IMG/VR virus record: IMGVR_UViG_3300027977_002218
Span: 1 to 31,587 of that record
Strand: one strand, 5' to 3'
From: a virus
Length of the DNA: 31,587 nucleotides
Part shown: positions 9,630 to 30,963 of the stretch, piece by piece
Numbering within the stretch: the stretch's first letter is position 1
Layout of the letters: each line of letters opens with the position of its first letter
Program-made: the position numbers and the translations under genes
Notes under the pieces: model-generated
Told to the model about the DNA's origin: nothing
Seen by the model: the letters and a program-made list of their open reading frames with translations, nothing else
The model's database searches: none

Positions 9630-9635
9630 AATAAT

Positions 9636-17989: not shown

Positions 17990-18130
17990 ATGCAAACCTT
18001 TAAGCAGTATCTTTTAGAAAAAGAAGAAAAACGTAGATTAGATCCAAAATGTTGGAAAGGTTATCGCAAATCTGGTACTAAACTTAAAGATGGTACTAGA
18101 GTAAATAAGTGTATAAAGGTAAACAAATGA
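17990..18130 (+). CDS. Small basic phage protein with capsid-targeting-like N-terminus
   Basis: A 46-residue protein. It starts MQTFKQYLLE, much like the T4 internal-protein leader MKTYQEFIAE, ending in L-L-E, a legal (L/I)xE site for a T4 gp21-type prohead protease. The rest, DPKCWKGYRKSGTKLKDGTRVNKC, resembles a short Cys/Gly/Lys motif common at the ends of marine phage proteins; no biochemical function is known to me. The stop overlaps the next ATG (ATGA), so translation is probably coupled. Assigned as real because of motif conservation, coupling and the late-type box 6 nt upstream. Confidence 0.7.
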   Translation: MQTFKQYLLEKEEKRRLDPKCWKGYRKSGTKLKDGTRVNKCIKVNK

Positions 18131-18354
18131 TTAGCTTAGAAAAAATAATATTAGATGTTTTAAAAGAAGAGAATATGGCTGGTGGTGCCGGTTCAGCATT
18201 CGGTCCCGGTGTGCAAGCAACAGCTACTCAGTTTTCTGGAGATAATTACGCCCCTGGGGATGCCCGGGTACCTAAGAGTCTATACGGTGGTATTGTTACT
18301 CGTGGAGGCTTAATTAAGCGCAGAAAGAAGCGTAAAAAGAAGCGTAAAAGTTAA
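18127..18354 (+). CDS. Small glycine-rich, basic-tailed protein; possible core or internal protein
   Basis: A 75-residue protein. The frame is open from a GTG at 18109, but the ATG at 18127 overlaps the preceding stop as ATGA and has AAAGG about 8 nt upstream, one of the few Shine-Dalgarno-like sites in the window. The N-terminus MISLEKIILDVLKE is an amphipathic helix ending in L-K-E, a possible prohead protease site. A Gly/Ala-rich middle and a very basic end (RRKKRKKKRK) follow, suggesting DNA contact inside the head. Function not recognised. Confidence 0.65.
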   Translation: MISLEKIILDVLKEENMAGGAGSAFGPGVQATATQFSGDNYAPGDARVPKSLYGGIVTRGGLIKRRKKRKKKRKS

Positions 18355-18356
18355 TA

Positions 18357-18770
18357 ATGGATACTGGTCATTGGTTGTTAAATGAAGATGTTTACATTTT
18401 TGAAAACATGTTTGGTTTCATTTATGAAATAACTAACAAAGTTAACGGCAAAAAATATATTGGTAAAAAACAGTGTGTGCGTAAGATAAGACGCAAACCA
18501 CTTAAGGGTAAGACCCGCAATAGGATTGATCATAAAGAATCAGATTGGAAAACCTACACATCTTCTTCGAGCGAACTAAACGAAGATATTCAAAAATACG
18601 GTAAAGATAGCTTCGAGTTTCGTATTCTTAAAATATGCGGATCAAAATGGGAGCTCGGGTATGAAGAGATTAAAGAACAGATAGCTCGAGATGTGCTCCG
18701 CAGGAATGACTATTACAACGGAATTATTAATGTGCGTATCGGGACTCCTCCTAAGAGTCTCCTTAAATAA
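18357..18770 (+). CDS. GIY-YIG endonuclease, Seg-like
   Basis: A 137-residue protein with the GIY-YIG nuclease signature: FIYEITNK (21-28) and KKYIGKKQ (32-39), followed by a conserved basic stretch (KIRRKPLKGK) and a segment rich in Ser/Thr and acidic residues containing SELNEDIQKYGKD. In T4-like phages such proteins (Seg family) are free-standing homing endonucleases or degenerate relatives. No separate DNA-binding domain is visible, and the protein is short. It begins 2 nt after the upstream stop. A start at the later ATG 18408 (MFGFIYEI) is possible and would leave the nuclease core intact. Confidence 0.75.
   Translation: MDTGHWLLNEDVYIFENMFGFIYEITNKVNGKKYIGKKQCVRKIRRKPLKGKTRNRIDHKESDWKTYTSSSSELNEDIQKYGKDSFEFRILKICGSKWELGYEEIKEQIARDVLRRNDYYNGIINVRIGTPPKSLLK
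18762..18769 (+). promoter_or_regulatory. T4-late-like box overlapping a stop codon
   Basis: CTTAAATA, 7 nt before ATG 18777. It overlaps the Leu-Lys-stop end of the upstream gene, so part of the match is dictated by coding. Kept because spacing matches similar boxes. Confidence 0.25.
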
Positions 18771-18776
18771 TACACA

Positions 18777-19385
18777 ATGACTCCAGTTAGTGAAAAAGTA
18801 TCTGTGTTTAAGCCTGTTTCGAGGTGTCTATACTGTAATTCAACCTCTTATGGTAAGGGGTGTAGATTTGCGCCCAAGGGTGTTCACTTTCATCCTCAAG
18901 ACCCTAAAAGGTGCTCCTATTGCGGCTCTACTTCTTATGGTAAAGGCTGTAAGTTAAATCCATTTTCAGATATCCATCTTCATGGTATTGACTACAATAA
19001 GATGTTCAATGAATCTATGAAAAACAAGTTTCTACTCTCTACACTTAACAAAGACTACAAAGAGTTTGAAGCTTATAAATTAGGTATAATAAACAGTAAC
19101 GGTGATAAGATTAAAGAGCCTGTGACTGAACAAGAACAAGCTGCTTACTCACCAGAAACAAAAACTATTCTCAAAGTTAAAAAATATTTAGGTTCTAAAC
19201 TAGATCTCATAAATCAAACCGCTATTCTTGAATCAGCCTCCAAACTGAACTACAATAAAGAAAATCATAAAACAGTCTTACGTTACGAAGAAAAGATTAA
19301 TAATATTATTGCTGAGCTTTACGAAACAGCAGAAGAGGCTCTAAAAGAAGGCTTGAGTATCGAGCAGGTTCAAGCATTATTATAA
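18777..19385 (+). CDS. Protein with tandem CxxC-C-HxH modules, unknown function
   Basis: A 202-residue protein. The first 70 residues hold two copies of one module: C17, C20, C29, H37, H39 and C46, C49, C58, H67, H69, each with STSYGKGC in the middle. This pattern suggests two small zinc-binding folds. The remaining 130 residues are charged and helical, with a segment (LKVKKYLGSKLDLINQTAI) that may coil. Similar Cys/His modules occur in phage proteins I cannot assign. No signal peptide or membrane segment. It is transcribed with the 162-residue gene downstream (2-nt gap). Confidence 0.6.
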   Translation: MTPVSEKVSVFKPVSRCLYCNSTSYGKGCRFAPKGVHFHPQDPKRCSYCGSTSYGKGCKLNPFSDIHLHGIDYNKMFNESMKNKFLLSTLNKDYKEFEAYKLGIINSNGDKIKEPVTEQEQAAYSPETKTILKVKKYLGSKLDLINQTAILESASKLNYNKENHKTVLRYEEKINNIIAELYETAEEALKEGLSIEQVQALL

Positions 19386-19387
19386 TA

Positions 19388-19876
19388 ATGCATTTTATAG
19401 AATATCCTAAATCAAGAGTGTGTGGGATTGATTATTACCCTTACTTTATCGATGCTCTTAAAGAATCTTATGCTTTTTGTAAAAAATATAAGATCCCTTA
19501 CAGCTTTAAAAATAAAGATATACAAAAATTCTTTTATCATTATTGCTTAGAAAAGCTCTGTTACGGATACAAAAAATGTGATTCAAAGTACCCTAAAGCG
19601 TTTGTTATATATCCCTTACCTAAAAATGTAGGTTTTACGGATAAACACTTTCAAACGATTTTGAAGGTATTACCTGTTCCCTGGGTCAAGGTCAGTTCAT
19701 TTGATTCTGCAGATGCAGAAATGGCTCTAACTCGAGTTCTTAATGTAAATCGTCTGGTGAGCTCTAAGTTAGAAAAGTTTCTGAATAGAAATGCCCTCTA
19801 CAATTTTCAAAAGAAAAATAAAAAATCTAAAACTTTTTCTTTAGGATCAGTGGATTTACCCGAAGCAAAAGATTAA
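19388..19876 (+). CDS. Conserved-looking phage protein of unknown function
   Basis: A 162-residue mixed alpha/beta protein rich in Tyr and Lys (FYHYCLEKLCYGYKKC, VIYPLPKNVGF). The C-terminal end is strongly basic (KKNKKSK). I recognise no domain. The reading frame is complete, tightly spaced to the upstream gene and longer than chance frames here, so the gene is likely real. A 72-nt gap with only a weak 5-bp stem-loop (near 19898-19914) follows. Confidence 0.55.
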   Translation: MHFIEYPKSRVCGIDYYPYFIDALKESYAFCKKYKIPYSFKNKDIQKFFYHYCLEKLCYGYKKCDSKYPKAFVIYPLPKNVGFTDKHFQTILKVLPVPWVKVSSFDSADAEMALTRVLNVNRLVSSKLEKFLNRNALYNFQKKNKKSKTFSLGSVDLPEAKD

Positions 19877-19934
19877 TTGCATGTATGGAAGATTGGGACT
19901 TCGCCAATTAGATTCTAGAAATATATAGTTCCCG

Positions 19935-19942
19935 ATTAAATA
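19935..19942 (+). promoter_or_regulatory. T4-late-like promoter box
   Basis: ATTAAATA, 6 nt before ATG 19949, in non-coding sequence, so the match is not forced by a coding frame. Same distance as at 17990 and 20602. Confidence 0.4.
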
Positions 19943-19948
19943 ATACAT

Positions 19949-20197
19949 ATGAGTAAATTTGATGCCGTTTTTAAAAGAATAGAAGAAATGCTGCCTGTTA
20001 CACCTGGACAGCCTCAACCAAAACCTGCACCTAGTGCAGCAGCTGCCCAGCAGCCTCCTATTGATCCAAAGATTGTACAAGAGCTAATTGCTGCTAAAAC
20101 AGAACAACAGGTTCAAATAGCTCTACAAAAAATGCAAGCATTACAAGCTGCTAAACCCAGCCAACAACCTGCTCCAAATCAACAGCCAGCTGTCTAA
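19949..20197 (+). CDS. Pro/Ala/Gln-rich small protein
   Basis: An 82-residue low-complexity protein. It starts MSKFDAVFKRIEE, an amphipathic segment ending in I-E-E that could be a prohead protease site and is close to the start of the gene at 27371 (MSKFDQVCESFF). A Pro/Ala/Gln linker (about 15-45) leads to a helical part (PKIVQELIAAKTEQQVQIAL) and another Pro/Gln tail. Composition suits a core or internal head protein, but this is inference. Its stop overlaps the next ATG by 1 base (TAATG). Confidence 0.6.
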   Translation: MSKFDAVFKRIEEMLPVTPGQPQPKPAPSAAAAQQPPIDPKIVQELIAAKTEQQVQIALQKMQALQAAKPSQQPAPNQQPAV

Positions 20198-20565
20198 TGG
20201 ACAAAGTAATTGTCAATTTAATTAAAATACAGAACCAGTTAAGAATACTGCACTGGCAGACTCTTTCTTATGCTGCTCACAAAGCTTTAGGTAAAGCATA
20301 CGAAAGCCTTGATGAATTGATTGATAGTTTAGTAGAAGTTCATCAAGGCAAATACGGAAGATTAACCTTTGAAACCCCTATCGATTTAGGTTTAGTTAAT
20401 CAAGATGAAATAGATCTTGAGGATATTTTAATTCAATTGAATGATTACCTATCTGGTCCATTCAATGAGATGCATGACCCTGTAAAAGATACCGATTGTC
20501 TCAATATTAGAGATGAAATATTAGCTGTTATTAATAAACTACGCTATCTCTTAACACTTAAATAG
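20197..20565 (+). CDS. Ferritin-like / Dps-like small protein
   Basis: A 122-residue helical protein. LRILHWQTLSYAAHKALG resembles the first helix of Dps (LHWxxxGxxFxxLH). Candidate metal ligands are H19, H28, D43 and E47. The 15- and 4-residue steps from H28 to D43 to E47 equal the H-D-E spacing of the Dps ferroxidase centre as I recall it, while H19-H28 is 9 rather than 12 residues. Dps proteins oxidise iron and bind DNA; here only a minimal two-helix core is clear and the protein is shorter than Dps (about 160-170). Metal binding is inferred. Starts at the stop of the preceding gene. Confidence 0.55.
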   Translation: MDKVIVNLIKIQNQLRILHWQTLSYAAHKALGKAYESLDELIDSLVEVHQGKYGRLTFETPIDLGLVNQDEIDLEDILIQLNDYLSGPFNEMHDPVKDTDCLNIRDEILAVINKLRYLLTLK

Positions 20566-20585
20566 TTAAGCTTTTACATTTAAAA

Positions 20586-20599
20586 TAGATAAATATCTA
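20586..20599. repeat. Short palindrome over a late-type box
   Basis: TAGATA-AA-TATCTA, 6-bp arms with a 2-nt centre, overlapping the GATAAATA box upstream of the nucleotidyltransferase gene. Could be an operator or a chance AT-rich repeat. Confidence 0.3.
20588..20595 (+). promoter_or_regulatory. T4-late-like promoter box for the nucleotidyltransferase cassette
   Basis: GATAAATA, one base from the T4 late consensus, followed by 6 nt and ATG 20602. It lies in a 36-nt non-coding gap and would drive the three overlapping genes that follow. Confidence 0.45.
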
Positions 20600-20601
20600 A
20601 T

Positions 20602-21303
20602 ATGTACGAGCTGTCATTTAGTGACTTTTTTAAAACATCTACTCTCTTATCGGAAGGGGGGAATATATTTTCAAGTCGCCGGATTAATAAGTCTGAGGTT
20701 ATGCCCACGCTCAAAAAAGCTCAAGAACTTACTGGTTTATCATTACTTGATAATACACTCGGATCAACCGGGAAGACAGAAACATCAGGAGATTTAGATG
20801 TAGTTGTGGATAGCAATAAAACAAACAAAGACGAATTTATTAAACATCTCATATCTAAAGGTGTTGATCCATCCCATCTTAAAAAAACAGGTATTGAGGT
20901 TGCCTACAAATCTCCGATATATACGGCTAATGGCGAAGAGACTGGGGATTTTGTTCAAATAGATTTCATGTACCATGATGATCCTGGTTACTTAAAATTT
21001 TATTATGCCAATAATGAAACACCTCCATATAGGGGTGCTCATAGAAATATAACTCTGGCATCTATAGCTAAAACTAAAGGTTACTCTTTATCAATGAAGG
21101 GGCTTGCAGATAGGGAAACAAAACAAATTATTACTAGAAAACCAGATGAGATGGCAAAAAAAATTCTAGGAGAAGATGCTACTCAAAAAGACCTATTTAA
21201 CCTTCCTTCTATTATTAGTTATTTAAGAAAGCATTATTCTGAAGAAGAAATAAAAGCAATGGTGCAAGAAGCAGAAAAAACAATAGGAATTAATATTTTA
21301 TGA
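20602..21303 (+). CDS. Pol beta-superfamily nucleotidyltransferase
   Basis: A 233-residue protein. LGSTGKTETSGDLDVVVD (53-70) is a nucleotidyltransferase-fold signature: GS followed by the metal-binding pair D64 and D66; FVQIDFMYH supplies the third acid, D120. The active site looks intact. Families with this core transfer NMP to RNA, protein or small molecules; the acceptor is unknown. The first 18 residues, MYELSFSDFFKTSTLLSE, form an amphipathic leader ending in L-S-E, resembling a capsid-targeting peptide, and the enzyme core starts after it. Its stop overlaps the ligase-like ATG (ATGA). Confidence 0.75.
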   Translation: MYELSFSDFFKTSTLLSEGGNIFSSRRINKSEVMPTLKKAQELTGLSLLDNTLGSTGKTETSGDLDVVVDSNKTNKDEFIKHLISKGVDPSHLKKTGIEVAYKSPIYTANGEETGDFVQIDFMYHDDPGYLKFYYANNETPPYRGAHRNITLASIAKTKGYSLSMKGLADRETKQIITRKPDEMAKKILGEDATQKDLFNLPSIISYLRKHYSEEEIKAMVQEAEKTIGINIL

Positions 21304-22241
21304 TTTCATTTAAAAAATATTTTAAATACACTATAGATGAAGCTAAAGAGGGGGATAGAGTTGGTATATCTCATCTATACTCATTGAATAAACCAGAATT
21401 ATATTCAATGGATTTTTTAACATTTAAGAAGTTTATAAAATATCTTAAGCAAAACGGTGGTAAAATTGATCCTACTAATTCAACTGTATCTGAAAAAGTT
21501 GACGGTATGGCCTTAAAGGTTGGTAATGATGAGCAAGGTAAATTTTATGTTCAATCTAGCTATTCTGGTAAGGTATATGAACCTCGAGAATTTTTAACTG
21601 CTGTTAAATTTCCACCCGCTCAGCAAGCATTTATGAGTAGTTTTGATCGTATAAAAAGTATGATTAAACCTATCATAGGCAACTCGCCGTGCACAATACA
21701 GCTTGAGTGGTTGTACTCTCCAAACGCTACTAAAATTAATGAAAGACCAGGTATGGTTTCTTTTGTAGTATCTGGTTACAAGACAAGTAAGCTCGGCACT
21801 TGGTCGACTTTTGTTATTTTAAATATTAATTGTCAAGAGATAGATGCTAACGAAATAAAATCAAAAATGCTCAAATTGAGTAATGATGAAGTTAAATTTA
21901 TACTCCCTAATGTTGAGATGTTTACATCTATAGATCTCTCTAAAGAAGTAAGAGATGCGGAAGTGTCTATTAATAAAATTGAATCTTCGAAGTTACCAGA
22001 GCAAATAGAGCAACTTAAAGGTAATAGAAAGAGAGAAGCAATAGCAAAACGTAAAGAGCTTGAGCAACAACTTGCAGCTCTAAGATTACCTATACAAAAA
22101 GAAATGTATAATAAGATTGTTTCTAATCTTGTTAAAACAGAAGGTATTTTGGGAGATATAGAAGGTTATGTTATTAAGGCGGGGGATATAACTTTTAAAG
22201 CTAATAACCCTGAGTTTATGAAATCCAAATTTGATGTATGA
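21300..22241 (+). CDS. ATP-dependent RNA/DNA ligase-like adenylyltransferase
   Basis: A 313-residue protein with covalent nucleotidyltransferase motifs: KVDG (66-69, motif I with the AMP-accepting Lys66), an internal Glu in IQLEW (E136), EGYVIK (288-293, motif IV) and TFKANN with K300 (motif V). This is the ligase/mRNA-capping fold; no C-terminal OB domain is evident after motif V, so it may be a minimal RNA ligase. An inserted charged coiled coil (about 215-265) is unusual. The leader MISFKKYFKYTIDE ends in I-D-E. It overlaps both neighbours by 4 bp, so the three enzymes are probably made in fixed ratio. Confidence 0.75.
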   Translation: MISFKKYFKYTIDEAKEGDRVGISHLYSLNKPELYSMDFLTFKKFIKYLKQNGGKIDPTNSTVSEKVDGMALKVGNDEQGKFYVQSSYSGKVYEPREFLTAVKFPPAQQAFMSSFDRIKSMIKPIIGNSPCTIQLEWLYSPNATKINERPGMVSFVVSGYKTSKLGTWSTFVILNINCQEIDANEIKSKMLKLSNDEVKFILPNVEMFTSIDLSKEVRDAEVSINKIESSKLPEQIEQLKGNRKREAIAKRKELEQQLAALRLPIQKEMYNKIVSNLVKTEGILGDIEGYVIKAGDITFKANNPEFMKSKFDV

Positions 22242-22852
22242 GATCATTTAGCAATTTTTTTACAGAACAAACTAGAGACGGTAAACTTGTAATTATTTAC
22301 TCAGGTCGCTTTCAGCCTGCCCATAAAGGTCACGCTATGGCTTATAATGCCCTCGTGCAGGAGTATCCAGAGGCAGATGTATGGGTGGCTACATCAAATG
22401 TTGTTAAAGAGGATTCTCCTTTTAATTTTCAAGAACGTAAATTTTTGTTGGAAAAAGCAGGTGTTCCTGGAGATAAAATAGTACAAGTAGTCAATACCTA
22501 CGTAGCCAAAGAGATTTCCTCGAAGTACAATGAACAAAAAGACCATCTTATATATGTTGTCTCTCAAAAAGACGCTGATCGTTTTTCCTATAAGCCAAAA
22601 AAAGATGGAACAATGCCCTATTTACAAAAGTTAGAAAATGTGAATGAACTTTTACCTATGGGGGAGAAAGGATATGTCAAAGTTGGTAAAACATTCCCTT
22701 TTAAAATACTCGGTAAAACGGTAACTGGGGCCACACAAATTAGAGATATGTACAAGCATGTTTCAGAGCCAGAAAGAAAACAAATTATTGTAGACCTTTA
22801 CGGAAAATTTGATGACGGTATTTATAACTTGTTTAATAAAAAGTTGAAATAA
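22238..22852 (+). CDS. HxGH nucleotidylyltransferase (NadM/cytidylyltransferase-like)
   Basis: A 204-residue protein. After the short leader MRSFSNFFTE comes VIIYSGRFQPAHKGHAM, with the GRFxPxHxGH signature (H29, H32) of nucleotidylyltransferases that form dinucleotides such as NAD or CDP-linked compounds. TGATQIRDMYK (about 165-175) matches the second conserved motif (ISxTxIR). Sequence alone does not settle whether the substrate is nicotinamide mononucleotide. NAD salvage is one possibility, since some T4-like vibriophages carry NAD salvage genes and a P-loop kinase gene lies at 25292. Overlaps the ligase stop (ATGA). Confidence 0.78.
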   Translation: MRSFSNFFTEQTRDGKLVIIYSGRFQPAHKGHAMAYNALVQEYPEADVWVATSNVVKEDSPFNFQERKFLLEKAGVPGDKIVQVVNTYVAKEISSKYNEQKDHLIYVVSQKDADRFSYKPKKDGTMPYLQKLENVNELLPMGEKGYVKVGKTFPFKILGKTVTGATQIRDMYKHVSEPERKQIIVDLYGKFDDGIYNLFNKKLK

Positions 22853-22871
22853 GTTCCAGAGGTAGTATAAT
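22844..22871 (+). promoter_or_regulatory. sigma70-like promoter for gene 22880
   Basis: TTGAAA (22844-22849), 16-nt spacer, TATAAT (22866-22871), then 8 nt to ATG 22880. The -35 overlaps the stop of the upstream gene. The -10 lies in the loop and right arm of a perfect inverted repeat. Confidence 0.55.
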
Positions 22872-22877
22872 ACCTCT
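22858..22877. repeat. 7-bp inverted repeat centred on a -10 element
   Basis: AGAGGTA-GTATAA-TACCTCT: perfect 7-bp arms around a 6-nt centre, with the -10 TATAAT running from the centre into the right arm. No T-run follows on either strand, so it is not a classical terminator. An operator or a hairpin near the transcript start are both possible. Confidence 0.5.
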
Positions 22878-22879
22878 AT

Positions 22880-23167
22880 ATGAAAACTAGTAGTACCGTA
22901 ACCTTAGATCTTAAACAGGAGGAAGCTAATACATTGCTTGAAGCTTTATTATTTGCATCCTCCATTAATGTTGGAGCAAATTGGTCTGAAAGAGATATTA
23001 ATAAAATGGTTACTCTATCTAAGAAACTTAAACAGCAATTAAATGGCTCTACTAAACTAGATCATATTGTATTTTACGAAGAAGAAAATTACGAAGATAA
23101 ATGGTCTCAAGACGTATTTAACTTTTTTAGAGATAATTTAAATATAGTACCTTTACAGCAAGCTTAA
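22880..23167 (+). CDS. Small phage protein, unknown function
   Basis: A 95-residue acidic protein: one beta-like N-terminal segment (STVTLDLKQEE), a helix (ANTLLEALLFASSINVGANW) and an acidic, aromatic C-terminus (FYEEENYEDKW, VFNFFRDNLN). The pattern recalls small conserved proteins of T4-like marine phages, but I recognise no domain. A good sigma70-like promoter with an overlapping inverted repeat precedes it, so it may be an early and separately regulated gene that also reads into queD, 1 nt downstream. Confidence 0.6.
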   Translation: MKTSSTVTLDLKQEEANTLLEALLFASSINVGANWSERDINKMVTLSKKLKQQLNGSTKLDHIVFYEEENYEDKWSQDVFNFFRDNLNIVPLQQA

Positions 23168-23168
23168 A

Positions 23169-23615
23169 ATGGTTAGATTTCAGTCAACAAAGATTATAGA
23201 ACTTGGCTCTTGTGCATTCAGGCAATGGCGAGCAGAAGGTACTCATTGTAAATATGTACATGGCTATCAGCTTAAGGCTAAATTCTGGTTTGGTTGTCAG
23301 GGACTAGATGATAAGAATTGGGTTATTAATTTTGGAGGATTAAAAGAGGTTAAAAAGGTATTACAAGATCAATTTGATCACACGCTTTGTATTGCTCAAG
23401 ATGACCCATTACTACCTAGTTTTGTTCAATTAGCAGATAATGGGGGATGTCAGCTTCGTATTATGGATGGGGTAGGTATTGAAAAGACGGCTGAATGGTG
23501 CTTTAAAACTGTAGATCCTATGATAAGAAGCATGTCTGTAGGTCGTTGCTGGCTTAATAGAGTTGAAGTGTGGGAACATGAACTAAATAGTGCAATATAT
23601 GAAAAAAGATCTTGA
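23169..23615 (+). CDS. queD: QueD-like 6-carboxytetrahydropterin synthase
   Basis: PTPS-fold enzyme of the 7-deazaguanine pathway (queuosine in tRNA, or deazaguanine bases in phage DNA). Catalytic features align well with E. coli QueD: C27 in GTHCKYVHG, D70-H71 in FDHTL, WVINFGGLKEV for the WxxDFxxLK segment and a Glu in VEVWEH. However, the position of the first zinc His is F17 (CAFRQW), and the HGH pair is HGY (H31, Y33), so two of three canonical zinc ligands are absent. It may bind metal differently or have changed activity. Transcribed after gene 22880; queE lies downstream beyond an inserted endonuclease gene. Confidence 0.8.
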   Translation: MVRFQSTKIIELGSCAFRQWRAEGTHCKYVHGYQLKAKFWFGCQGLDDKNWVINFGGLKEVKKVLQDQFDHTLCIAQDDPLLPSFVQLADNGGCQLRIMDGVGIEKTAEWCFKTVDPMIRSMSVGRCWLNRVEVWEHELNSAIYEKRS

Positions 23616-23796
23616 AGTAATTACAGCTAAATTTGAACAAGTATGGCCTAAAGACCGTAAGATAGGTTTTTGGGAATTTTTATCTTTAGTGTCTGTCTTG
23701 ATTTTTGCCTTACTTTATCTATTATTGTTTAATCCTATTGGGTGGGTTGCTATTGTAATCTGTTCATTACTTTTTAAATTTATTATTGGTGCTTAA
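23599..23796 (+). CDS. Small single- or double-pass membrane protein
   Basis: A 65-residue protein with a soluble N-terminus (KKDLEVITAKFEQVWPKDRK) and hydrophobic segments at about 24-43 and 46-62 separated by NPIGW. The frame is open to ATG 23590, but ATG 23599 (MKKDLEV) gives a more natural start. It overlaps the end of queD by 17 bp and ends 4 bp inside the convergent endonuclease gene. Role unknown; inner-membrane location is inferred from hydrophobicity only. Confidence 0.55.
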   Translation: MKKDLEVITAKFEQVWPKDRKIGFWEFLSLVSVLIFALLYLLLFNPIGWVAIVICSLLFKFIIGA

Positions 23797-24449
23797 ACAT
23801 AAACAAATTTTAAAACATCTCCTGGCACAAAAGGATGTTTGCGTCGTTGTTTAACAGTCCATGTTTTATTTTGCAAAAACTTATATACACAACTTCGATC
23901 TATTTTGTAAGTATTACTAAAATGGGTTTTATTGCGAAATAAACCTAGTAATTCATTATTTTTATAAACCTTAAAAGTATGATCTTGATAATTTTTATAA
24001 TCTAAATTATTAAAAGTCTTCTTAAGAGATGCTTTCCGTCTTTCTTGATGTAGTTGTTTTTGTTCAGTAGTTCTATTTTTAATAGATTTTTTTATGGCAT
24101 CACTGTGTTTTTTACCGTAACGTTTCTTTATAAGAGACGTTTTGTTTGGTAAGTTTGCTAATGTGTCTCCTCCTGCTGCAAATCTTTTTACATTATAATA
24201 TTTCGGTTTTTTACCGTATAACAATTCTTCGTTTTTAATCATATCTAAATACTTTTGTTCTTCTTTAATTAGGTTGTTTGTAAACTTTATAATTCGTCTT
24301 TTAAAATCTTGAGGTCGTTTTTTGTATGCTTTTAACATTCTTGATGACGAACAAATATATCTATCATTTACATTCCCCTTATGAGAGCCAATGTAATACA
24401 GTTTTCTTAATTTATCATACCAAATATAAACAAAACCTATATATGTCAT
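23793..24449 (-). CDS. GIY-YIG homing endonuclease, free-standing
   Basis: A 218-residue protein. The nuclease core has GFVYIWYDK (5-13), LYYIGSHKG (17-25) and R30 in DRYICSS. A basic region (KRYGKKHSDAIKKSIKNRT) looks like a NUMOD3 DNA-binding helix, and the last 50 residues (LLGLFRNKTHFSNTYKIDRSCVYKFL) look like a NUMOD1/IENR-type helix-turn-helix. This is the complete layout of a mobile homing endonuclease. It is transcribed against both neighbours and separates queD and queE, which is what recent insertion would look like. The start is ATG 24449. Confidence 0.85.
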   Translation of the reverse strand: MTYIGFVYIWYDKLRKLYYIGSHKGNVNDRYICSSSRMLKAYKKRPQDFKRRIIKFTNNLIKEEQKYLDMIKNEELLYGKKPKYYNVKRFAAGGDTLANLPNKTSLIKKRYGKKHSDAIKKSIKNRTTEQKQLHQERRKASLKKTFNNLDYKNYQDHTFKVYKNNELLGLFRNKTHFSNTYKIDRSCVYKFLQNKTWTVKQRRKHPFVPGDVLKFVYV

Positions 24450-24490
24450 ATTAATATTTATTTAACATGCTAAGGTTTTTAAATTAAATA

Positions 24491-24518: not shown

Positions 24519-24526
24519 TTATAGGT

Positions 24527-25279
24527 ATGAGTGAAAATGATTATCTTTTAATTTCAGATGACGGTCCCGGCTTTAGCACTATTGAGGGAGAGGGTAGATT
24601 AATCGGTACACCGAGCATATTTTTGCGTTTGTTTGGCTGTAACTTAACCTGTAAGGGGTGGGCTTCTCCTGACTCGCCTTGGGGATGTGACTCATTTGTC
24701 TCCTGGTCAAAAAAGAATAAATGGACTTTTGAAGATGTGTTTAATTTCTATGAAGAAAACGGCTTTATAGAAAAATTAAATAGAGGGGATGTTTGGAAAT
24801 TGACTGGTGGTGAGCCAAGCTTAAGACAAAAACCTCTTATTAAATTTATTGATGCATTTATTGAAAAGTATGGTTTTTTACCTCGTATAGATTTTGAAAC
24901 TAATGCTACTTTAATGTTCGAAGAAATTTGGGTCAAAAAGTATAAAGCTACATTTACAACATCTCCAAAGATGTCTAGTAACGGAGACCCTGAAGAAAAA
25001 ACTTATGTTCCAGAAGTTCTAAACTGGCATATAAAACAAAATTCATGCTTTAAATTTGTTGTTACAGGTGAAAAAGATGTTGAAGAACTTTTTAGAAAGT
25101 ATATTACTTCTGATAAAGTAAAAGTGCCTAAGCATCTTATTTGGCTTATGGTTTGTGCCGGTTCTAGAAAAGAACATATTGAAAATGCTGCTTATGTAGC
25201 AGAACTTTGTAAAGAGTGTGGTTTTAATTTTTCACCTCGTTTACAATTAATTTTGTGGGATAAAGCACTGCGGGTTTAA
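24527..25279 (+). CDS. queE: QueE-like 7-carboxy-7-deazaguanine synthase (radical SAM)
   Basis: Radical SAM enzyme that contracts carboxytetrahydropterin to 7-carboxy-7-deazaguanine. FSTIEGEG (16-23), PSIFLRLFGCNLTC (29-42), LTGGEPS (92-98) and a C-terminal SPRLQLILW are family marks. The cluster cysteines appear to be C38, C42 and C54: CX3C with the third Cys delayed by nine residues compared with CX3CX2C of E. coli QueE, and GCDSFVSW aligning with WCDTKHTW. The start ATG 24527 is preferred to a TTG 12 codons upstream because that TTG is the likely -35. FolE and QueC are not in the window. Confidence 0.85.
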   Translation: MSENDYLLISDDGPGFSTIEGEGRLIGTPSIFLRLFGCNLTCKGWASPDSPWGCDSFVSWSKKNKWTFEDVFNFYEENGFIEKLNRGDVWKLTGGEPSLRQKPLIKFIDAFIEKYGFLPRIDFETNATLMFEEIWVKKYKATFTTSPKMSSNGDPEEKTYVPEVLNWHIKQNSCFKFVVTGEKDVEELFRKYITSDKVKVPKHLIWLMVCAGSRKEHIENAAYVAELCKECGFNFSPRLQLILWDKALRV

Positions 25280-25291
25280 TAAGTTATTTAT

Positions 25292-25924
25292 ATGAAAATT
25301 GCATTCATGGGTACACAGTGTAACGGAAAGAGTACACTAATTAAAGAATTTATTAAAAGATGGCCTATGTACAAGGAGGTTAAGTCTTCATATAGAAACT
25401 TAATAAAAACAGGCAAAATCACTAATAATCAGGAGGGTACTGCAGAGTCTCAAAAAGCTATTTTAAACGCTATTATTGATGATACTCAAAACGCTATTGC
25501 AAAAGATGGTGATTTTTTAGTTTTTGATCGCTGTGTTATAGATAATATTGTTTATTCCCTTTGGTTAAATGAAAAAGGTAAAGTGTCCGATGAATTTATT
25601 ATGGATACAAAGCGTATAGCTTTTGAGGCTGTTCGGGTATTTGATATTATCTTTTATCTACCTTTAAGAGAGGAAATTAAGATTGTACCTAAAAAAGGTA
25701 GAGATCTTGACCCGGTATACCGAGAAGAAATTGATAACTTATTCAGAGCTGTAGTAGGTACACAGGAGAAGAGTCAGGGAATTTTCTTTCCTAAAGAAGA
25801 CTGTCCTGCAGTTATAACTCTTGAAGGACCTCCTGATCTACGTATTGAACAAATACCTATGTATATTAAGCCTTCTGGTAAGTTCTTTGATGAAAATGAT
25901 GGATCTCTGTTAGCCAATATGTAA
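25292..25924 (+). CDS. P-loop kinase/ATPase (AAA_28, NadR kinase-like)
   Basis: A 210-residue P-loop protein. Walker A is GTQCNGKST (7-15); FLVFDRCVIDNIVY holds the DR-containing catalytic strand found in nucleoside-kinase-like NTPases, including the NadR kinase domain. The C-terminal part is Pro- and acid-rich. Probably phosphorylates a nucleoside or nucleotide. Together with the HxGH nucleotidylyltransferase at 22238 it could form an NAD salvage pair, but no substrate-specific residues are recognisable. It follows queE by 12 nt, likely in the same transcript. Its stop lies in a 10-bp inverted repeat. Confidence 0.7.
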   Translation: MKIAFMGTQCNGKSTLIKEFIKRWPMYKEVKSSYRNLIKTGKITNNQEGTAESQKAILNAIIDDTQNAIAKDGDFLVFDRCVIDNIVYSLWLNEKGKVSDEFIMDTKRIAFEAVRVFDIIFYLPLREEIKIVPKKGRDLDPVYREEIDNLFRAVVGTQEKSQGIFFPKEDCPAVITLEGPPDLRIEQIPMYIKPSGKFFDENDGSLLANM

Positions 25925-25950
25925 ATTCGTATAAATAATAATACGAATTT
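25923..25950. repeat. 10-bp inverted repeat around a T4 late promoter
   Basis: AAATTCGTAT and ATACGAATTT, perfect 10-bp arms with an 8-nt centre. The left arm contains the kinase stop; the right arm ends directly before ATG 25951. TATAAATA runs across the left arm and the loop. Confidence 0.6.
25930..25937 (+). promoter_or_regulatory. T4 late promoter, exact TATAAATA
   Basis: Exact T4 late consensus octamer, 13 nt before the ATG of the Gln-rich 472-residue protein. This predicts an 8-nt leader. Expected to be read by RNA polymerase carrying the gp55 protein. Confidence 0.6.
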
Positions 25951-27369
25951 ATGTTTGATTTTACAGGTATAGTATCTAATGTTTTATTAGAACAACAACC
26001 AGGGGCTACACAGCAAGGTACCCCTAGCCCTAATAATCCTAATGCATCATCTCAGCAACAGACTGGTAGTAACAACCAGTCTTTATTAAAGACTCTATAC
26101 AGTAACCCCAATAGTGAATTTGATAATCTTATTGCTGCTTATAATACTAAATTTAAAAGTAATATAGATCCTTCAGCAGCTGAATCTTTTTTGCAGTCAG
26201 TGTGTGCCCCTGGTTATTTTGCAGGTAAAACTCTTGAAACTGCTGGAGGGTATACCTTTATACCTATTTTTGATGGTTTCTTACTATATTTAGCACAAAT
26301 TCGCACAAGCAACCCAAAAGCAGACTTTGAAACAATAAAGCAAAATTTAATAGCAGATCCTACACTTGCAGCTCAACACTTTAAACAAGTAATAGATCAA
26401 ATCAAAAAAACCCAAGATGCAAATGAAGAATCTTATGTGCCAATTAACGCAGCTCTTGGTAAAGCAAAAGGGGTTTTAGACAATCAAGTTGATCTATTAA
26501 GCAAAACTGCCATAGCAGAATTACATAAAGATAGCGTGTTGGTTGCTGTTGAAAAAATTGTTGCAAAAAGAACTAGTGTAGTAAACCGTATTTCCCATTT
26601 AAAAGGATTAAAAAGACCTTTTAGTAGAACATTAATACAACCGCTTTTTTATAGTTATAAAAGCTTTGTATCAAGTACCCCCGGTAATTTGTTAGCAGGC
26701 TTGTATGGTGGGTGGCAAAAGAAAATTTCAGGAGATTTTCAATCTGCAGTCGACGATTTAACATCAAATAAATTAATGACTATTGCTATTTTAACCGGGG
26801 AGTACTACAAGTATTTGTTAAATAAAGTTCTTTCTGGACAAAGTCAAGAAAATCAACAAACAGTTAATGCAAGTTTAAATTTATTTGATACTTTTATAGG
26901 ATCTATTTTACAGGAAGCCCCTCTTACATCTGCAGGTAATCTTGCAATGCAGGGCGGAACTAGTACACCATCTTCCCTTACACTTAATAATCAACAGCAA
27001 ACTCAACAACAACAACAACAAAATACCAATCAAACTCAACAACAGCAACAAAATACATCAACATTAGACCCTAAAAACGCTAAAGAAATAGAAGATATGC
27101 TTAAAATGGTAGGTTCTCAAAAATTTGTAGATTATCAAAATTTTGTTGAAAAAGGTGCAGGTAGATATTTCCCAGGTGTGATTTATAACCTTGGTAAAAT
27201 TGATGAAGATGCTCGTTCAGGTGTAAAACCTGCAAAAGAATTATATGATGCCATTAAAGGGGTAGCTTTTTTTACACGCTCAACACCAGGGTTTAAACAA
27301 AGGTCTCAATTTGCAGGACAAACAGCCAGTGCTATAACTGCAGCAGCTGGAGCTAAGCTTTATAATTAA
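25951..27369 (+). CDS. Large Gln-rich putative internal head protein
   Basis: A 472-residue protein with no recognised domain. It starts MFDFTGIVSNVLLE (leader ending in L-L-E), followed by a Gln/Pro/Asn linker, an alpha-helical region (about 45-300), a second leader-like segment LFDTFIGSILQE (311-322, L-Q-E) and a poly-Gln linker (348-367), then a final helical domain (about 372-472). The two leader-like segments suggest processing by a prohead protease into two domains. An exact late promoter precedes it. No signal peptide or membrane segment. A virion-internal role is inference from the late promoter and the processing-site pattern. Confidence 0.65.
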   Translation: MFDFTGIVSNVLLEQQPGATQQGTPSPNNPNASSQQQTGSNNQSLLKTLYSNPNSEFDNLIAAYNTKFKSNIDPSAAESFLQSVCAPGYFAGKTLETAGGYTFIPIFDGFLLYLAQIRTSNPKADFETIKQNLIADPTLAAQHFKQVIDQIKKTQDANEESYVPINAALGKAKGVLDNQVDLLSKTAIAELHKDSVLVAVEKIVAKRTSVVNRISHLKGLKRPFSRTLIQPLFYSYKSFVSSTPGNLLAGLYGGWQKKISGDFQSAVDDLTSNKLMTIAILTGEYYKYLLNKVLSGQSQENQQTVNASLNLFDTFIGSILQEAPLTSAGNLAMQGGTSTPSSLTLNNQQQTQQQQQQNTNQTQQQQQNTSTLDPKNAKEIEDMLKMVGSQKFVDYQNFVEKGAGRYFPGVIYNLGKIDEDARSGVKPAKELYDAIKGVAFFTRSTPGFKQRSQFAGQTASAITAAAGAKLYN

Positions 27370-27370
27370 T

Positions 27371-27604
27371 ATGAGTAAATTCGACCAGGTTTGCGAAAGT
27401 TTCTTTCCAAGAACTATGAAGTTTGTTACAAGGGTTCGTTATCCAAAACAAATTCAGTTTTCAGAAAAATTTCTCAAGTCTTTACAAGAAGAATTTGCTA
27501 GACTTCAAATGATTGAAGAGGCAGAAACTGAAGTTAGACCTATTCGCAATTACAAAGATAAGTTTTTAAAAGCTGTCAACTTCTGTGTTAGTAATCTCAA
27601 GTAG
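27371..27604 (+). CDS. Small basic protein of unknown function
   Basis: A 77-residue basic protein beginning MSKFDQVCESFFPR, similar at the start to the protein at 19949. The middle is charged and helical (FSEKFLKSLQEEFARLQMIEEAE). No domain recognised. It starts 1 nt after the preceding stop, so it probably shares the late transcript, and ends 8 bp inside the convergent primase gene. Confidence 0.55.
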   Translation: MSKFDQVCESFFPRTMKFVTRVRYPKQIQFSEKFLKSLQEEFARLQMIEEAETEVRPIRNYKDKFLKAVNFCVSNLK

Positions 27605-28601
27605 TCTTTTGTTTCATTAAAGCCTCTACCCCTGAATAAGAGTTCTGTACAATGAACTTGTAGGGTAATTCATCTAAATGTAAGTTACAGCAAATTTCGT
27701 TTACATCTTTAAACTTCTTAAACTCTTTAGGCCATACAAAGAGTTTTTTATTTTGTTTAATAAGATTCTTAATCTTTTTAGACATCTCTTTATTGTTCTT
27801 ATCATTGTCGTAGACGTAAATTATTTCTTTATCAACACACTTCTTAATAAAAGATTCCTGTTTATCAGTCATTGAAGAGCCTCCAACAGCTACAGCGTTC
27901 TTAACAAACATAGCATCAATAGGTCCTTCGAAGATAAAGATATAAGGAATATCATTATCTATATTGTTTTCACCGTAAAGACTCTTCTCTCCGTACTTTG
28001 TTAGATATTTTGGATATACATCTCCATCTAGACTCCGGGACTGGTAGGACTCCACTTTACCTGTCTCCCCATAAAAGGGTATAATAAGTCTATTCTTGTG
28101 TACTTTATCCTTTAAAGAAACGTAAAGAGACTTTGGTCTATTTACAGCAGTAAACAGCCTTCTTTTTTGAGCATACTCAACAGAACTCTTAACGAGCTTT
28201 TCTTCTTTATGAAAGACTACTTGATTACTATCAAATATATCAATTGCATCGTCAGGAAGCGCAGGTATATCAACAGCTTTTACGACTTCGTTTTGTTTAG
28301 CTATTTTAGTCTGAATCTCTTTACTGCTATGAAACGTTTTAGTTTCTTTTAAGATTTCATAAACAGGTTTTTTAGAAATCTCATGAATCCAATTAAGCTC
28401 AGACCAAGACCTACTGCAATTAAAACAATAAAAATACCGATCGTCTGGAAAATAAAATAAACGACGCTTACGACCGGCAGAATGACCTTCCCCGCATACA
28501 CAGCACTCAGCGTTATATACTCTCTGATACTTCTTATAAACCGGTCTCTTACAGTGAGAGTAGAGAGCCTGTATGACATAATCTTGAGGTAGTCCTTCCA
28601 C
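27597..28601 (-). CDS. 61: DNA primase, T4 gp61-like
   Basis: DnaG-type primase that makes RNA primers with the replicative helicase. Zinc-ribbon cysteines C33/C36 and C59/C62 lie at the N-terminus. The TOPRIM domain has FIFEGPIDAMF (E225) and YVYDND (D265, D267). The length of 334 is near T4 gp61 (342), and the segment ESYQSRSLDGDVYPKYL matches the T4 GKAESFQGRAL region. The start is GTG at 28601, just past a TATAAT that ends 6 nt upstream. It is transcribed leftward and overlaps the convergent 77-residue gene by 8 bp. Confidence 0.9.
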   Translation of the reverse strand: MEGLPQDYVIQALYSHCKRPVYKKYQRVYNAECCVCGEGHSAGRKRRLFYFPDDRYFYCFNCSRSWSELNWIHEISKKPVYEILKETKTFHSSKEIQTKIAKQNEVVKAVDIPALPDDAIDIFDSNQVVFHKEEKLVKSSVEYAQKRRLFTAVNRPKSLYVSLKDKVHKNRLIIPFYGETGKVESYQSRSLDGDVYPKYLTKYGEKSLYGENNIDNDIPYIFIFEGPIDAMFVKNAVAVGGSSMTDKQESFIKKCVDKEIIYVYDNDKNNKEMSKKIKNLIKQNKKLFVWPKEFKKFKDVNEICCNLHLDELPYKFIVQNSYSGVEALMKQKTT

Positions 28602-28607
28602 CTCTAT

Positions 28608-28635
28608 ATTATATATTAACCCTGGCCGGCAGCAA
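28608..28635 (-). promoter_or_regulatory. Promoter for the primase gene
   Basis: Minus strand TTGCTG (28630-28635), 16-nt spacer, TATAAT (28608-28613), 6 nt, GTG 28601. The -10 is perfect but the -35 is weak and lies within the end of the upstream gene. Confidence 0.35.
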
Positions 28636-29059
28636 TATCTCTTTGACGTTTAGCTGAATTAATAATAAAACCTTTAAAGATTTCTGATAACTCTCTAGCT
28701 TGTTCTGCAAGTTTGATAATCTTTGAAGATGTTTCTCTCGATATTCCTTGAAATAATGAACCTTGTTTATCAAGGTCTGTTACCATTTGCTGAAGAGAAC
28801 CGGTATCAATACCATTTAATTCATCAGCAAACTGATCGAGTTTCATAACATGATTTTTAACAGTTCCGGCATCTCCAGCTGGTGAGGCTACAGGTGCAGG
28901 ATCCACATCAAAATTATCAGGCATTGGTACACCGTCAGTAGCTGGCTCCGGAGCTGGCTCTTCCCCGGTCATATCGTCTGTTACTGGTTCATCGGTAGGA
29001 ACGGGCATCTCATCTTGTTCAGTGATAAATACGTTTCTATAAAGGGTATCAAATTTCAT
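28616..29059 (-). CDS. Acidic protein with capsid-targeting-like leader, possible core protein
   Basis: A 147-residue protein: leader MKFDTLYRNVFITE ending in I-T-E, an acidic Pro/Asp/Glu-rich segment (about 15-65) and a helical C-terminus (66-147; MKLDQFADELNGIDTG, SKIIKLAEQARELSEIF). Acidic segments of this kind occur in prohead core and scaffold proteins. The gene lies upstream of primase in the leftward direction and is divergent from 29080 with only 20 bp between them. I recognise no domain; a virion-core role is inferred from the leader and the composition. Confidence 0.6.
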   Translation of the reverse strand: MKFDTLYRNVFITEQDEMPVPTDEPVTDDMTGEEPAPEPATDGVPMPDNFDVDPAPVASPAGDAGTVKNHVMKLDQFADELNGIDTGSLQQMVTDLDKQGSLFQGISRETSSKIIKLAEQARELSEIFKGFIINSAKRQRDIAAGQG

Positions 29060-29066
29060 ATATCTT

Positions 29067-29074: not shown

Positions 29075-29079
29075 TATTT

Positions 29080-29436
29080 ATGGTAGATTTAATAGTTTTT
29101 CTCAAAGTAATAGCTTTATTAGTAACTATTATGATAGTTTGGTTTAATTCTGGTGCTTTTCCAGCGTACTGTAAGGTATTAGGTTTAAAAAAACTGCTAG
29201 CTGGTTATGATACCAATACAGATGGTTTAACTTTTCCACAATATCTCTATGTTAAACGTAACCTACTTTTTAATTGTAATGCTTGTATGTTTTTAATAGA
29301 ACTAATTACTTGCCCTCTATGTTTGGCTTTATGGCTGAGTATTTTAGGAGCCTGTTTATTTTTAACAGTTTTGTATACCCCGGTGGTGTTTCTTGTGACT
29401 TTAGCAGTATATCTTTTGTTTAGTCGCTTACTATAG
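29080..29436 (+). CDS. Integral membrane protein with paired CxxC motifs
   Basis: A 118-residue membrane protein. Hydrophobic segments lie at about 4-22, 70-95 and 97-114. Two CxxC pairs, C66-N-A-C69 and C78-P-L-C81, flank the start of the second segment, spaced by eight residues; this could bind metal or form disulfides. An amphipathic loop (FPQYLYVKR) precedes them. No family recognised. The stop is 6 bp inside the convergent nuclease gene. Likely inserted in the host inner membrane. Confidence 0.6.
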   Translation: MVDLIVFLKVIALLVTIMIVWFNSGAFPAYCKVLGLKKLLAGYDTNTDGLTFPQYLYVKRNLLFNCNACMFLIELITCPLCLALWLSILGACLFLTVLYTPVVFLVTLAVYLLFSRLL

Positions 29437-30234
29437 AGCTAGGTGCTCAATTAAGTGTTTTTCCATAATTGCTGCACACTCATCAGGCATAAACTTTAAA
29501 GGCACTATTTTATAATCTTCGTTATTAACAGAGAACCAAATAACTTTGATATCCCCGATCTTAATATCTGTATACTTTTCTATGAATATTTTGTATAAAG
29601 ATAGCTGTAAGCTATAAGAACTAAATTCGCATTCGTCAAGATGTTCTACAGGGGGTAGAAGCTTTTTTTCGTATTCTGACTCTAAACTAAAACGTTTATT
29701 AGTTTTAAAGTCGTAAATTTCAAATGTTTCTGTTTGTGTATTGTATGCGAGCATATCTAGCATACCGCACACTTTTGTATTTGTTAGATCCCCAACCACA
29801 AATTCATTCTTAATAGGTAGAATATAATCTTTTGTAGCATTATAAAAATTGTTAAACTGCTTAACAAGAACTACAAGATTTTTTTGCATCATTTCATGCA
29901 AAGTTTGTCCTAAAATAGCTTCAGCTAAATTACGGTTGTAAGGAATAATTTTATTCTGATAGTAGTTGTCAATGTAGTTATGAAGAGTAGAACCTTGATA
30001 GGTAGCCATTTGATTATTCTTCTTCCAGACAAGTCTCATCTCTTCTGGAGTAATACCATGCTCCTTAGCCTTAATTGCTGACCATTTGTTTTCGTCAAAC
30101 TTTTCTTTAACAGATCCAACAAGACCTGTTACTGAAACTCTTGCGCTAGGCTGACCATCTATTTTATATGTATGGTCTTTATCGAAATAGGTGATTCGAT
30201 CAAATACTTTTAGCTTTTTTAACTCTTCTATCAT
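29431..30234 (-). CDS. PD-(D/E)XK exonuclease, RecB/Cas4-like
   Basis: A 267-residue nuclease with the RecB-family arrangement: GSTLHNYID (H85), E144 in KNEFVVGDL, GMLDML (D160), IYDFKT (D175, K177) and the family-specific QxxxY (Q210 to Y214). Acts on DNA ends; in phages it is used for host DNA degradation or recombination. No Cas4 cysteine cluster is visible. It overlaps the upstream gene by 35 bp and the convergent membrane protein by 6 bp. Start ATG 30234. Confidence 0.8.
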   Translation of the reverse strand: MIEELKKLKVFDRITYFDKDHTYKIDGQPSARVSVTGLVGSVKEKFDENKWSAIKAKEHGITPEEMRLVWKKNNQMATYQGSTLHNYIDNYYQNKIIPYNRNLAEAILGQTLHEMMQKNLVVLVKQFNNFYNATKDYILPIKNEFVVGDLTNTKVCGMLDMLAYNTQTETFEIYDFKTNKRFSLESEYEKKLLPPVEHLDECEFSSYSLQLSLYKIFIEKYTDIKIGDIKVIWFSVNNEDYKIVPLKFMPDECAAIMEKHLIEHLAL

Positions 30235-30754
30235 GAGGTTTTCGCTTGAGATTTTTAATAGGACAAGCGCAATTGTCTTTCAGTATACAGGCCTCACATC
30301 CTAAATCAAGATATATGTCCGGTCTCCAACAAGCAAACTGAGTTACTTGTTCACACATCTCTTTGTTCTTAACCATACTAATAGGCTCAGAACCCTTCCA
30401 TTGCATTACAATAGGCTTTTGTTTATACTCTTCTGCTACCTTCTTTTGTCGCTTTCTATCTACAGCGTCCTTTGATTTAAATTTCTTAACGTAACACTTC
30501 AGTATAGGGAAAGGAATCGGTTTTGTTTCTTTACAATTAAACTGCTTACGAATTTCTAATTCTGTATTTCCTTTCGATAACAACTTACGAGCGTCCCTGC
30601 TTATAAAATAATTGATGTAATCTTCAACATCATCAAATTTAAGCTTCTTAGCTTGTTTCTCAACCCGAGCTCTTGGCTGCTTAGGTATTACTTCTCCGGT
30701 TAGTATACAAACCAGATCAACCCGTTTTTGACGTTTTTGTTTTTTTGCAACCAT
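30200..30754 (-). CDS. Basic protein with Cys-rich C-terminus, unknown
   Basis: A 184-residue Lys/Arg-rich protein whose last 55 residues hold six cysteines: C134, C142, C153, C156, C162 and C164 (CWRPDIY, GCEACILKDNCACP). This could bind zinc or an Fe-S cluster. The rest is helical with a basic N-terminus (KKQKRQKRVD), suggesting nucleic-acid binding. It overlaps the RecB-like nuclease by 35 bp in the same direction, so the two may act together, but I do not recognise the family. Confidence 0.55.
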   Translation of the reverse strand: MVAKKQKRQKRVDLVCILTGEVIPKQPRARVEKQAKKLKFDDVEDYINYFISRDARKLLSKGNTELEIRKQFNCKETKPIPFPILKCYVKKFKSKDAVDRKRQKKVAEEYKQKPIVMQWKGSEPISMVKNKEMCEQVTQFACWRPDIYLDLGCEACILKDNCACPIKNLKRKPHDRRVKKAKSI

Positions 30755-30783
30755 TAGTAATATATTGCTTAATTAATCATAAT

Positions 30784-30963
30784 ATGCCAGCAAAGTCAGA
30801 AAAACAGCGTAAATTTTTTGGAGCTGTAATGGGTGCCAAAGAAGGTCAAAAAGGCGTTAAAGGTGCAGCTAAGAAAGTAGCTAAAGAAATGCCTAAAAAA
30901 GAAATTAAAAAGTTTCTTAAAAAAGAGTCTTTTGAAGACTTAGTTAGTTCGATCCTCGAATAA
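30784..30963 (+). CDS. DUF3008-like small protein with a C-terminal leader-like tail
   Basis: A 59-residue basic protein. MPAKSEKQRKFFGAVMGAKEG at the start matches the DUF3008 pattern (MPAKSxxQxxFFGMV). A Lys-rich middle (KKVAKEMPKKEIKKF) is followed by ESFEDLVSSILE at the very C-terminus, closely resembling the N-terminal leaders of other proteins here and ending in I-L-E. The open frame begins at 30745, but ATG 30784 gives the family's usual start. It overlaps the end of the convergent gene by 20 bp. Function of DUF3008 is unknown; virion internal location is possible. Confidence 0.75.
   Translation: MPAKSEKQRKFFGAVMGAKEGQKGVKGAAKKVAKEMPKKEIKKFLKKESFEDLVSSILE

Follow-up and report, generated by a model that had tools for sequence, protein, structure and literature searches.

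Putative T4-type capsid-targeting leaders on a varied protein cargo in an uncultured T4-like phage

The window analysed here is the whole of IMG/VR virus record IMGVR_UViG_3300027977_002218, a fragment of 31,587 bases that lacks end repeats and carries T4-like replication genes (gp46/gp47-like, UvsW-like and primase). Eight of its genes, spanning positions 17990-29059 and named here 17990, 18127, 19949, 20602, 21300, 22238, 25951 and 28616, start with a short leader that ends in [L/I]xE or, in 22238, FTE. By homology, these leaders are most probably (about 0.88) T4-type capsid-targeting sequences (CTS), through which the proteins would be packaged into the prohead and cut there. Ejection of the cargo into the host with the DNA is likely, by analogy with the T4 internal proteins (IPs) and Alt. 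An earlier note on the bare sequence of the window had proposed such T4-like capsid targeting, and the proposal is now supported by a head protease in relatives, a conserved Glu at the predicted cut, a detachable leader on a nucleotidyltransferase (NTase) and homologues found in virions.

Leaders of the window and the T4 rule

All eight N-termini read exactly as the earlier note had written them and lie where it had placed them, with one correction: the gene quoted at 28616 is on the minus strand and runs from 29059 down to 28616 (Table 1). The 19949 leader, described before as weaker, is equal to the others, with IxE in 13 of 13 distinct orthologues. The F-T-E ending of 22238, which had been set apart, is regular, since FTE alternates with LAE, LTE, LLE, LEE and IEE at the same site among the 17990 orthologues. 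The range of the set had been drawn to 30963, but the last gene (30781-30963) has no N-terminal leader and bears a leader-like C-terminus, SFEDLVSSILE, instead. The 27371 protein (MSKFDQVCESFFP...) was first taken for a leader protein and was dropped because it has no [L/I]xE site. The window enzymes with an expected role inside the cell (PTPS, radical SAM, kinase, primase and nuclease) have no leader, which was counted in favour of capsid targeting. Pfam and PHROGs searches with the leader proteins mostly returned no match.

[L/I]xE at residues 8-20 occurs in 13 of the 44 window genes, about twice the 6.7 that protein interiors would lead one to expect (P 0.011), and its enrichment was not significant in most single relatives. 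Plain counts of this motif were dropped as a basis for the claim, being too weak, and stronger tests were used because the motif near an N-terminus is a poor signal alone. In T4 IPIII, mutagenesis tied targeting to residues 4 and 7 and processing to residues 8 and 10 (review, PMC9026906). A T4 rule, with its positions taken from the T4 literature, was set as an aromatic residue at 4, a hydrophobic residue at 7 and [LIF]xE with the Glu at 10-18. It is satisfied by 5/44 window genes against 0.23 expected (P 4e-6), and in relatives by 13/390, 6/326 and 6/292 genes against 1.8, 0.9 and 1.2 expected, counts that are not fully independent as orthologues recur. The leaders of 17990 (F4, Y7, L8, E10) and 22238 (F4, F7, F8, E10) fit T4 IPIII position by position. 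Positions 4 and 7 are strict in five of the eight window leaders; 18127 has L4/I7, and the i,i+3 pair is shifted in 20602 and 28616. A second leader class is longer (13-18 residues) and reads F..[LIV]...[LIV]L.E. A less strict pattern derived from T4 did not reach significance in single relatives. Two regular expressions, fixed after the window and six relatives had been viewed, were run unchanged on five unseen related contigs and gave 8 matches against 0.47 expected (P 4e-8) and 4 against 0.24 (P 1e-4).

The leader genes also share a late-promoter-like box. The T4 late promoter is TATAAATA. TAAATA was found at 5/5 leader-gene operon heads of the window versus 0/13 other operon heads, and the remaining three leader genes overlap the preceding gene. 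Across eleven related contigs it stands at 21/22 leader operon heads versus 112/330 others (P 7e-9), many of those others being virion genes too. In a 103-kb relative (G014), it lies 9-24 nt upstream of 24/54 virion-block genes, gp21 and gp22 included, versus 8/61 genes elsewhere. This sequence motif, TAAATA at -9 to -24, suggests late expression of the leader genes with the virion genes.

Leader conservation and the tagged enzymes

The Glu at the predicted cut (P1) is kept in all distinct orthologues of 17990 (13/13), 19949 (13/13), 22238 (14/14) and 25951 (4/4). It is also kept in 24/24 clean members of the 18127 family, from which two more rows, one gp23 sequence and one divergent, misregistered member, were left out, and in 11/11 homologues of 28616 after the most distant one (VLRE) had been put in register. 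P3 is L, I, F or V across the leaders, with F in 22238 and V in some relatives. Whereas the bodies vary, the tag is mostly retained. The proteins at the 25951 locus have 472, 182, 176, 388 and 413 residues by contig, most with leader-like starts, and the 388-residue protein of relative G012 has no clean site. At the locus of the window's NTase and ligase-like genes, relatives carry a DUF6267 protein (PF19782, E 1e-100, domain from residue 28), and 18/18 variants are readable with [V/I/L]xE just ahead of the domain, the length and sequence of the leader being variable. In relative L008, 17990 and 18127 make up a single in-frame fusion, which keeps the first leader but not the second; it is seen in one contig only and is possibly an assembly fault. 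An array of small proteins in relative G013 (L053, 734-6439), with leaders MNFDxLVxxIL.E and MNKDQ.LLAEAY, resembles an island of internal proteins.

The homologues of 20602 in Sinorhizobium phage Phosso, Agrobacterium phage Atu_ph07 and Pseudomonas phage PA5oct have the annotated starts M-GGAAF, M-GGRAF and M-SGNAF. In the MAFFT alignment, the 17 extra residues of 20602 stand as a single insertion, with the first G of GGNIF directly behind LLSE. A cut after LLSE would give the start of the homologues, so the leader appears to be a graft and the exact cut position is supported; a clean N-terminal insertion that ends at the predicted cut also supports a detachable tag. The earlier note had taken leaderless homologues in relatives as a sign against its proposal: close homologues of the leader proteins all keep leader and Glu, and the distant homologues of the NTase are without the leader, which in 20602 is cleanly inserted. 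GS...DxD and a third Asp are kept in four aligned homologues, and no Pfam family was over the cut-off for 20602. Its assignment as a polymerase-beta-like NTase is well supported by these motifs.

The same strength applies to 22238 as an NMNAT/cytidylyltransferase-like enzyme, in which the HxGH and TxxR motifs and PF01467 are present. For 21300, no Pfam or PDB match was found, and the comparison of DUF6267 with 21300 by hhalign and by hidden Markov model (HMM) was not significant. The protein is probably ligase-like, as read from the motifs KVDG (KxDG motif I), EGYVIK and FKANN only. Thus, among the three nucleotidyl-transfer enzymes that had been claimed, 20602 and 22238 stand and 21300 is a motif-based assignment. 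Structure models of 21300 and 20602 (mean pLDDT 48 and 36) were too poor for a fold search. As to the roles of the tagged enzymes, early RNA-end repair or restoration of NAD or nucleotides would fit, which is speculative.

Two observations were made in other large phages. The uncultured huge phage LR756508 (L013, 11584-14331) encodes a 915-aa fusion of ParB-like, NMNAT-like and probable ligase-like parts, which has a single leader-like N-terminus (MKLGSFSKKLTINLIEE) and joins functions that are separate in the window. In Atu_ph07 (L016, 6588-9965), the four adjacent proteins gp60-gp63 start with MRLFQLLE, MRWHQLIE, MKWHQLTE and MRWDQLTE; this distant jumbo phage probably carries such tags too. 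In Pfam, three of them are without a family and the fourth has a weak acetyltransferase match only.

Head machinery, virion proteins and rival explanations

No gp21 was found in the window record or in the first twelve relatives, all of which are fragments. The earlier note had made its proposal depend on a gp21-type protease in the genome, and the 103-kb relative G014, which shares most of the leader-gene neighbourhood of the window and has a UvsW 88% identical, encodes a gp21-type S77 protease (Pfam, E 3.6e-30) and gp23 (E 2.7e-48). A scan with the G014 protease gave 65 gp21 loci across the clade, some on contigs up to 236 kb. The gp22-like scaffold of the clade adjoins the protease and starts with MDFKSILKE, MDFKKILQE or MNFKEILKE in most members, an N-terminus that resembles the leaders. 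The gp21-type protease, the gp22-type scaffold and gp23 are thus found in relatives, and the head genes lie beyond the window fragment.

The virion proteome of cyanophage S-CREM2 holds 13 non-structural or hypothetical proteins within the genome parts covered (PMC10665884). The T4 rule is satisfied by 4/139 S-CREM2 genes (gp6, gp14, gp154 and gp155), and all four are among these 13; a looser pattern matches 5/13 detected proteins versus 4/126 others (P 3e-4), and as both patterns were written after the detected proteins had been seen, these counts are weaker than a blind test. The leaders are MKDFDSFLEE in the SAM hydrolase gp6, VKRFDAFLTE in the kinase gp14 and MKNFSSFLTE in the cytidylyltransferase gp154. 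The virion protein gp154, leader-bearing (MKNFSSFLTEA; PMC10665884), shares its enzyme superfamily with 22238, PF01467 being present in both. The cytidylyltransferase family T4-GC190 was reported in the S-SM1 virion (PMC3037559), and its Syn33 member starts with MKKFSAFLTEA. A literature search on capsid targeting and cyanophages returned a T4 review only and no earlier link between these enzymes and the tag, with subscription journals mostly outside its scope. The S-CREM2 virion protein gp12 (L071, 7704-10313), annotated as Cas9, starts with MTSRWSNWSTGSDKKPLRFASFMAEA, possibly a longer tag; the Cas9 label is doubtful, as no Pfam family was matched.

The tagged set also includes a copy of the capsid arm. 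The profile of the 18127 family without its leader has matches in the gp23 of six contigs, five of them related and one distant (E 1.6e-16 to 1e-8), on the segment just past the likely maturation site. LKE of the 18127 leader aligns with LRE of gp23, right before the N-arm copy, and the remainder of 18127 is a Lys/Arg tail. Such a capsid-arm copy may dock to the shell and bind DNA. In S-CREM2, gp160 (L072, 15343-16236), which was detected in virions (PMC10665884), has 24 residues that are 75% identical to residues 61-84 of its own gp23, and a CWPGY module that resembles the 17990 body (E 1e-5). The LHKWF module of G013 and G014 was not significantly similar to gp160. Both 18127 and gp160 are possible capsid-arm mimics. 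A wider and tentative idea, which we hold less likely to be right than wrong, is that environmental T4-like phages have in the tag a general, exchangeable means of delivery, by which different enzymes are put under one packaging signal; N-arm-copy cargo with a basic region (18127 and, independently, gp160) could dock in the N-arm site of the shell and tether or condense DNA.

In the proposed pathway, a late-made protein would bind the gp22-like prohead core via its amphipathic propeptide of 10-18 residues and be enclosed as the gp23 shell forms. The gp21-type protease would cut after the Glu of [L/I/V/F]xE and free the mature protein inside the head, and enzymes and basic proteins would exit with the DNA at infection. 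The NTase 20602, the ligase-like 21300 and the NMNAT-like 22238 would then probably go to work immediately, on RNA of the host or the phage or on nucleotide pools. The 17990 and 18127 proteins are probably DNA-bound internal proteins, and 18127 would also mimic the capsid N-arm. The acidic 28616 and the small 19949, and also the small 18127, may be head-core parts and not injected effectors.

Several points weigh against this pathway. The 31.6 kb of the window hold no head genes, so that any protease of this phage would lie outside them, and cutting and virion presence in the clade are deduced from its genes and from homologues in other phages. The orthologue counts across relatives are not independent. 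Both 20602 and 21300 occur only in near-identical contigs, and the conservation counts cover the other six leaders. Distant homologues of the NTase and of DUF6267 have no leader, and the PA5oct NTase, annotated as detected by electrospray tandem mass spectrometry (ESI-MS/MS) and hence as structural, is also without one. Several virion-detected S-CREM2 proteins lack a leader, so the leader is not the sole route, and the authors of that study weigh packaging and carry-over both (PMC10665884).

Among the other explanations, the strongest is that the tagged proteins enter the prohead and stay there as core or structural parts or are degraded, like T4 gp22, gp67 and gp68, with little or nothing injected. 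The acidic 28616 (isoelectric point, pI, 4.2), the low-complexity 19949 and the similar N-terminus of the clade gp22 agree with this, but 20602 and 22238 keep intact catalytic motifs that a structural part would not need, the bodies are swapped among relatives as in the T4 internal proteins, and T4 IPs and Alt are ejected (PMC9026906). We regard this explanation as unlikely. Chance resemblance would draw on the weakness of [L/I]xE, barely enriched by itself in the window, and on N-termini often being amphipathic helices; it is very improbable, being contradicted by the held-out contigs, the T4-position rule, the kept Glu, the exact NTase insertion and the shared late-promoter-like box. A sorting signal to a target other than the prohead (a membrane, a phage compartment or another phage assembly) is just as improbable: a shared amphipathic tag could address any docking protein, but no result favours this, and the tag-like gp22 N-terminus, [L/I]xE at the end of the tag, the gp21-type protease of relatives and the tagged homologues in virions speak for the prohead.

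Other features, known systems and meaning

Table 1. Features of the window, with positions counted from its first base.
Feature	Position	Strand	Basis or remark
TAAATA, late-promoter-like	17978..17983	+	12 nt 5' of 17990 start
Leader MQTFKQYLLE (17990)	17990..18019	+	F4, Y7, L8, E10 fit T4 CTS determinants; P1 Glu 13/13
17990 body: small basic protein, 36 aa, pI 10.2, CWKGY..GTK module	18020..18130	+	Module also in S-CREM2 virion protein gp160
Leader MISLEKIILDVLKE (18127)	18127..18168	+	Gene start overlaps 17990 stop
18127 body: copy of mature gp23 N-arm with K/R-rich tail, 61 aa, pI 11.1	18169..18354	+	Leaderless family HMM versus gp23
TAAATA, late-promoter-like	19937..19942	+	5' of 19949
Leader MSKFDAVFKRIEE (19949)	19949..19987	+	IxE in 13/13 distinct orthologues
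19949 body: Pro/Gln/Ala-rich, 69 aa	19988..20197	+	Composition
TAAATA, late-promoter-like	20590..20595	+	5' of 20602-21300-22238 operon
Leader MYELSFSDFFKTSTLLSE (20602)	20602..20655	+	Exact insertion ahead of homologues' GG start (MAFFT)
20602 body: polymerase-beta-like nucleotidyltransferase	20656..21303	+	GSTGKTETSGDLDV at residue 54, VQIDFM at 118
Leader MISFKKYFKYTIDE (21300)	21300..21341	+	Satisfies T4 rule
21300 body: probable covalent nucleotidyltransferase/ligase-like	21342..22241	+	KVDG at 66, EGYVIK at 288, FKANN at 299; motifs only
Leader MRSFSNFFTE (22238)	22238..22267	+	FFTE in 14/14 orthologues
22238 body: NMNAT/cytidylyltransferase-like	22268..22852	+	PF01467 E 3e-7; GRFQPAHKGH at 23, TGATQIR at 163
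TAAATA, late-promoter-like	25932..25937	+	5' of 25951
Leader MFDFTGIVSNVLLE (25951)	25951..25992	+	LLE in 4/4 orthologues
25951 body: 458 aa, without assigned family	25993..27369	+	Locus proteins vary in length among relatives
Leader MKFDTLYRNVFITE (28616)	29018..29059	-	P1 Glu 11/11 once most divergent homologue realigned
28616 body: acidic, 133 aa, pI 4.2; possible head-core protein	28616..29017	-	Composition
TAAATA, late-promoter-like	29075..29080	-	5' of 28616
Leader-like SFEDLVSSILE, C-terminus of 30781-30963 protein	30928..30960	+	Kept in five orthologues, one ends ILS

The 30781-30963 protein is small, basic and conserved in relatives, and its C-terminus, which resembles the N-terminal leaders of the other genes, is a possible C-terminal variant of the leader; T4 Alt is processed at its C-terminus too (PMC9026906). 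Elsewhere in the window, a block of roughly twelve glycosyltransferase-like and methyltransferase-like genes lies between the gp46-like and gp47-like genes (4324-14416), with content varying among relatives. PTPS-like and radical-SAM-like genes, neither with a leader, stand close by each other at 23169-25279, as in 7-deazaguanine pathways.

The proposed mechanism is the already known T4 capsid-targeting system, none of whose defining features failed where it was checked, and the cargo set and the second, longer leader class are new. The T4 IPI-IPIII/Alt system has the same N-terminal propeptide of 10-20 residues with aromatics at 4 and 7 and likewise sets a single type of tag on unrelated bodies; its cleavage behind the Glu of a gp21-type motif is predicted for the window leaders as well, and its gp22/gp23/gp21 head genes have counterparts in the relatives. 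The window differs in its cargo (NMNAT-like, polymerase-beta-like NTase, ligase-like and gp23 N-arm-copy proteins), in the added leader class of 13-18 residues and in a P3 that may be F or V. S-CREM2 (PMC10665884) and S-SM1 (PMC3037559) likewise have a cytidylyltransferase/NMNAT-like protein, in their virions; in S-CREM2 its gene sits between UvsW and primase, as in the window, and this protein, the SAM hydrolase, the kinase and two more bear F..F[LM].E-type leaders, but in the parts of the two publications available these virion enzymes are not tied to a targeting leader. In the phiKZ-like phage SPN3US (PMC5694885), head proteins are also cut after Glu by a phage prohead protease and are thought to be ejected, whereas its motif is A/S-x-E and its propeptides are mostly far longer. 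DUF6267 (PF19782) of cyanophages and pelagiphages holds the NTase/ligase locus of the window in its closest relatives, with an [V/I/L]xE leader, while the cyanophage copies begin at the domain itself without a leader.

Cyanophage virion proteomes repeatedly hold enzymes that are left unexplained or suspected as carry-over (PMC10665884). A T4-type tag would account for their presence by a mechanism that can be tested, and its sequence rule could predict the head-borne proteins of T4-like phages. The 18127 protein is a capsid-arm copy of a kind not found described in the parts of the literature examined. The NMNAT-like, nucleotidyltransferase and ligase-like proteins are candidate first-minute effectors in uncultured phages.

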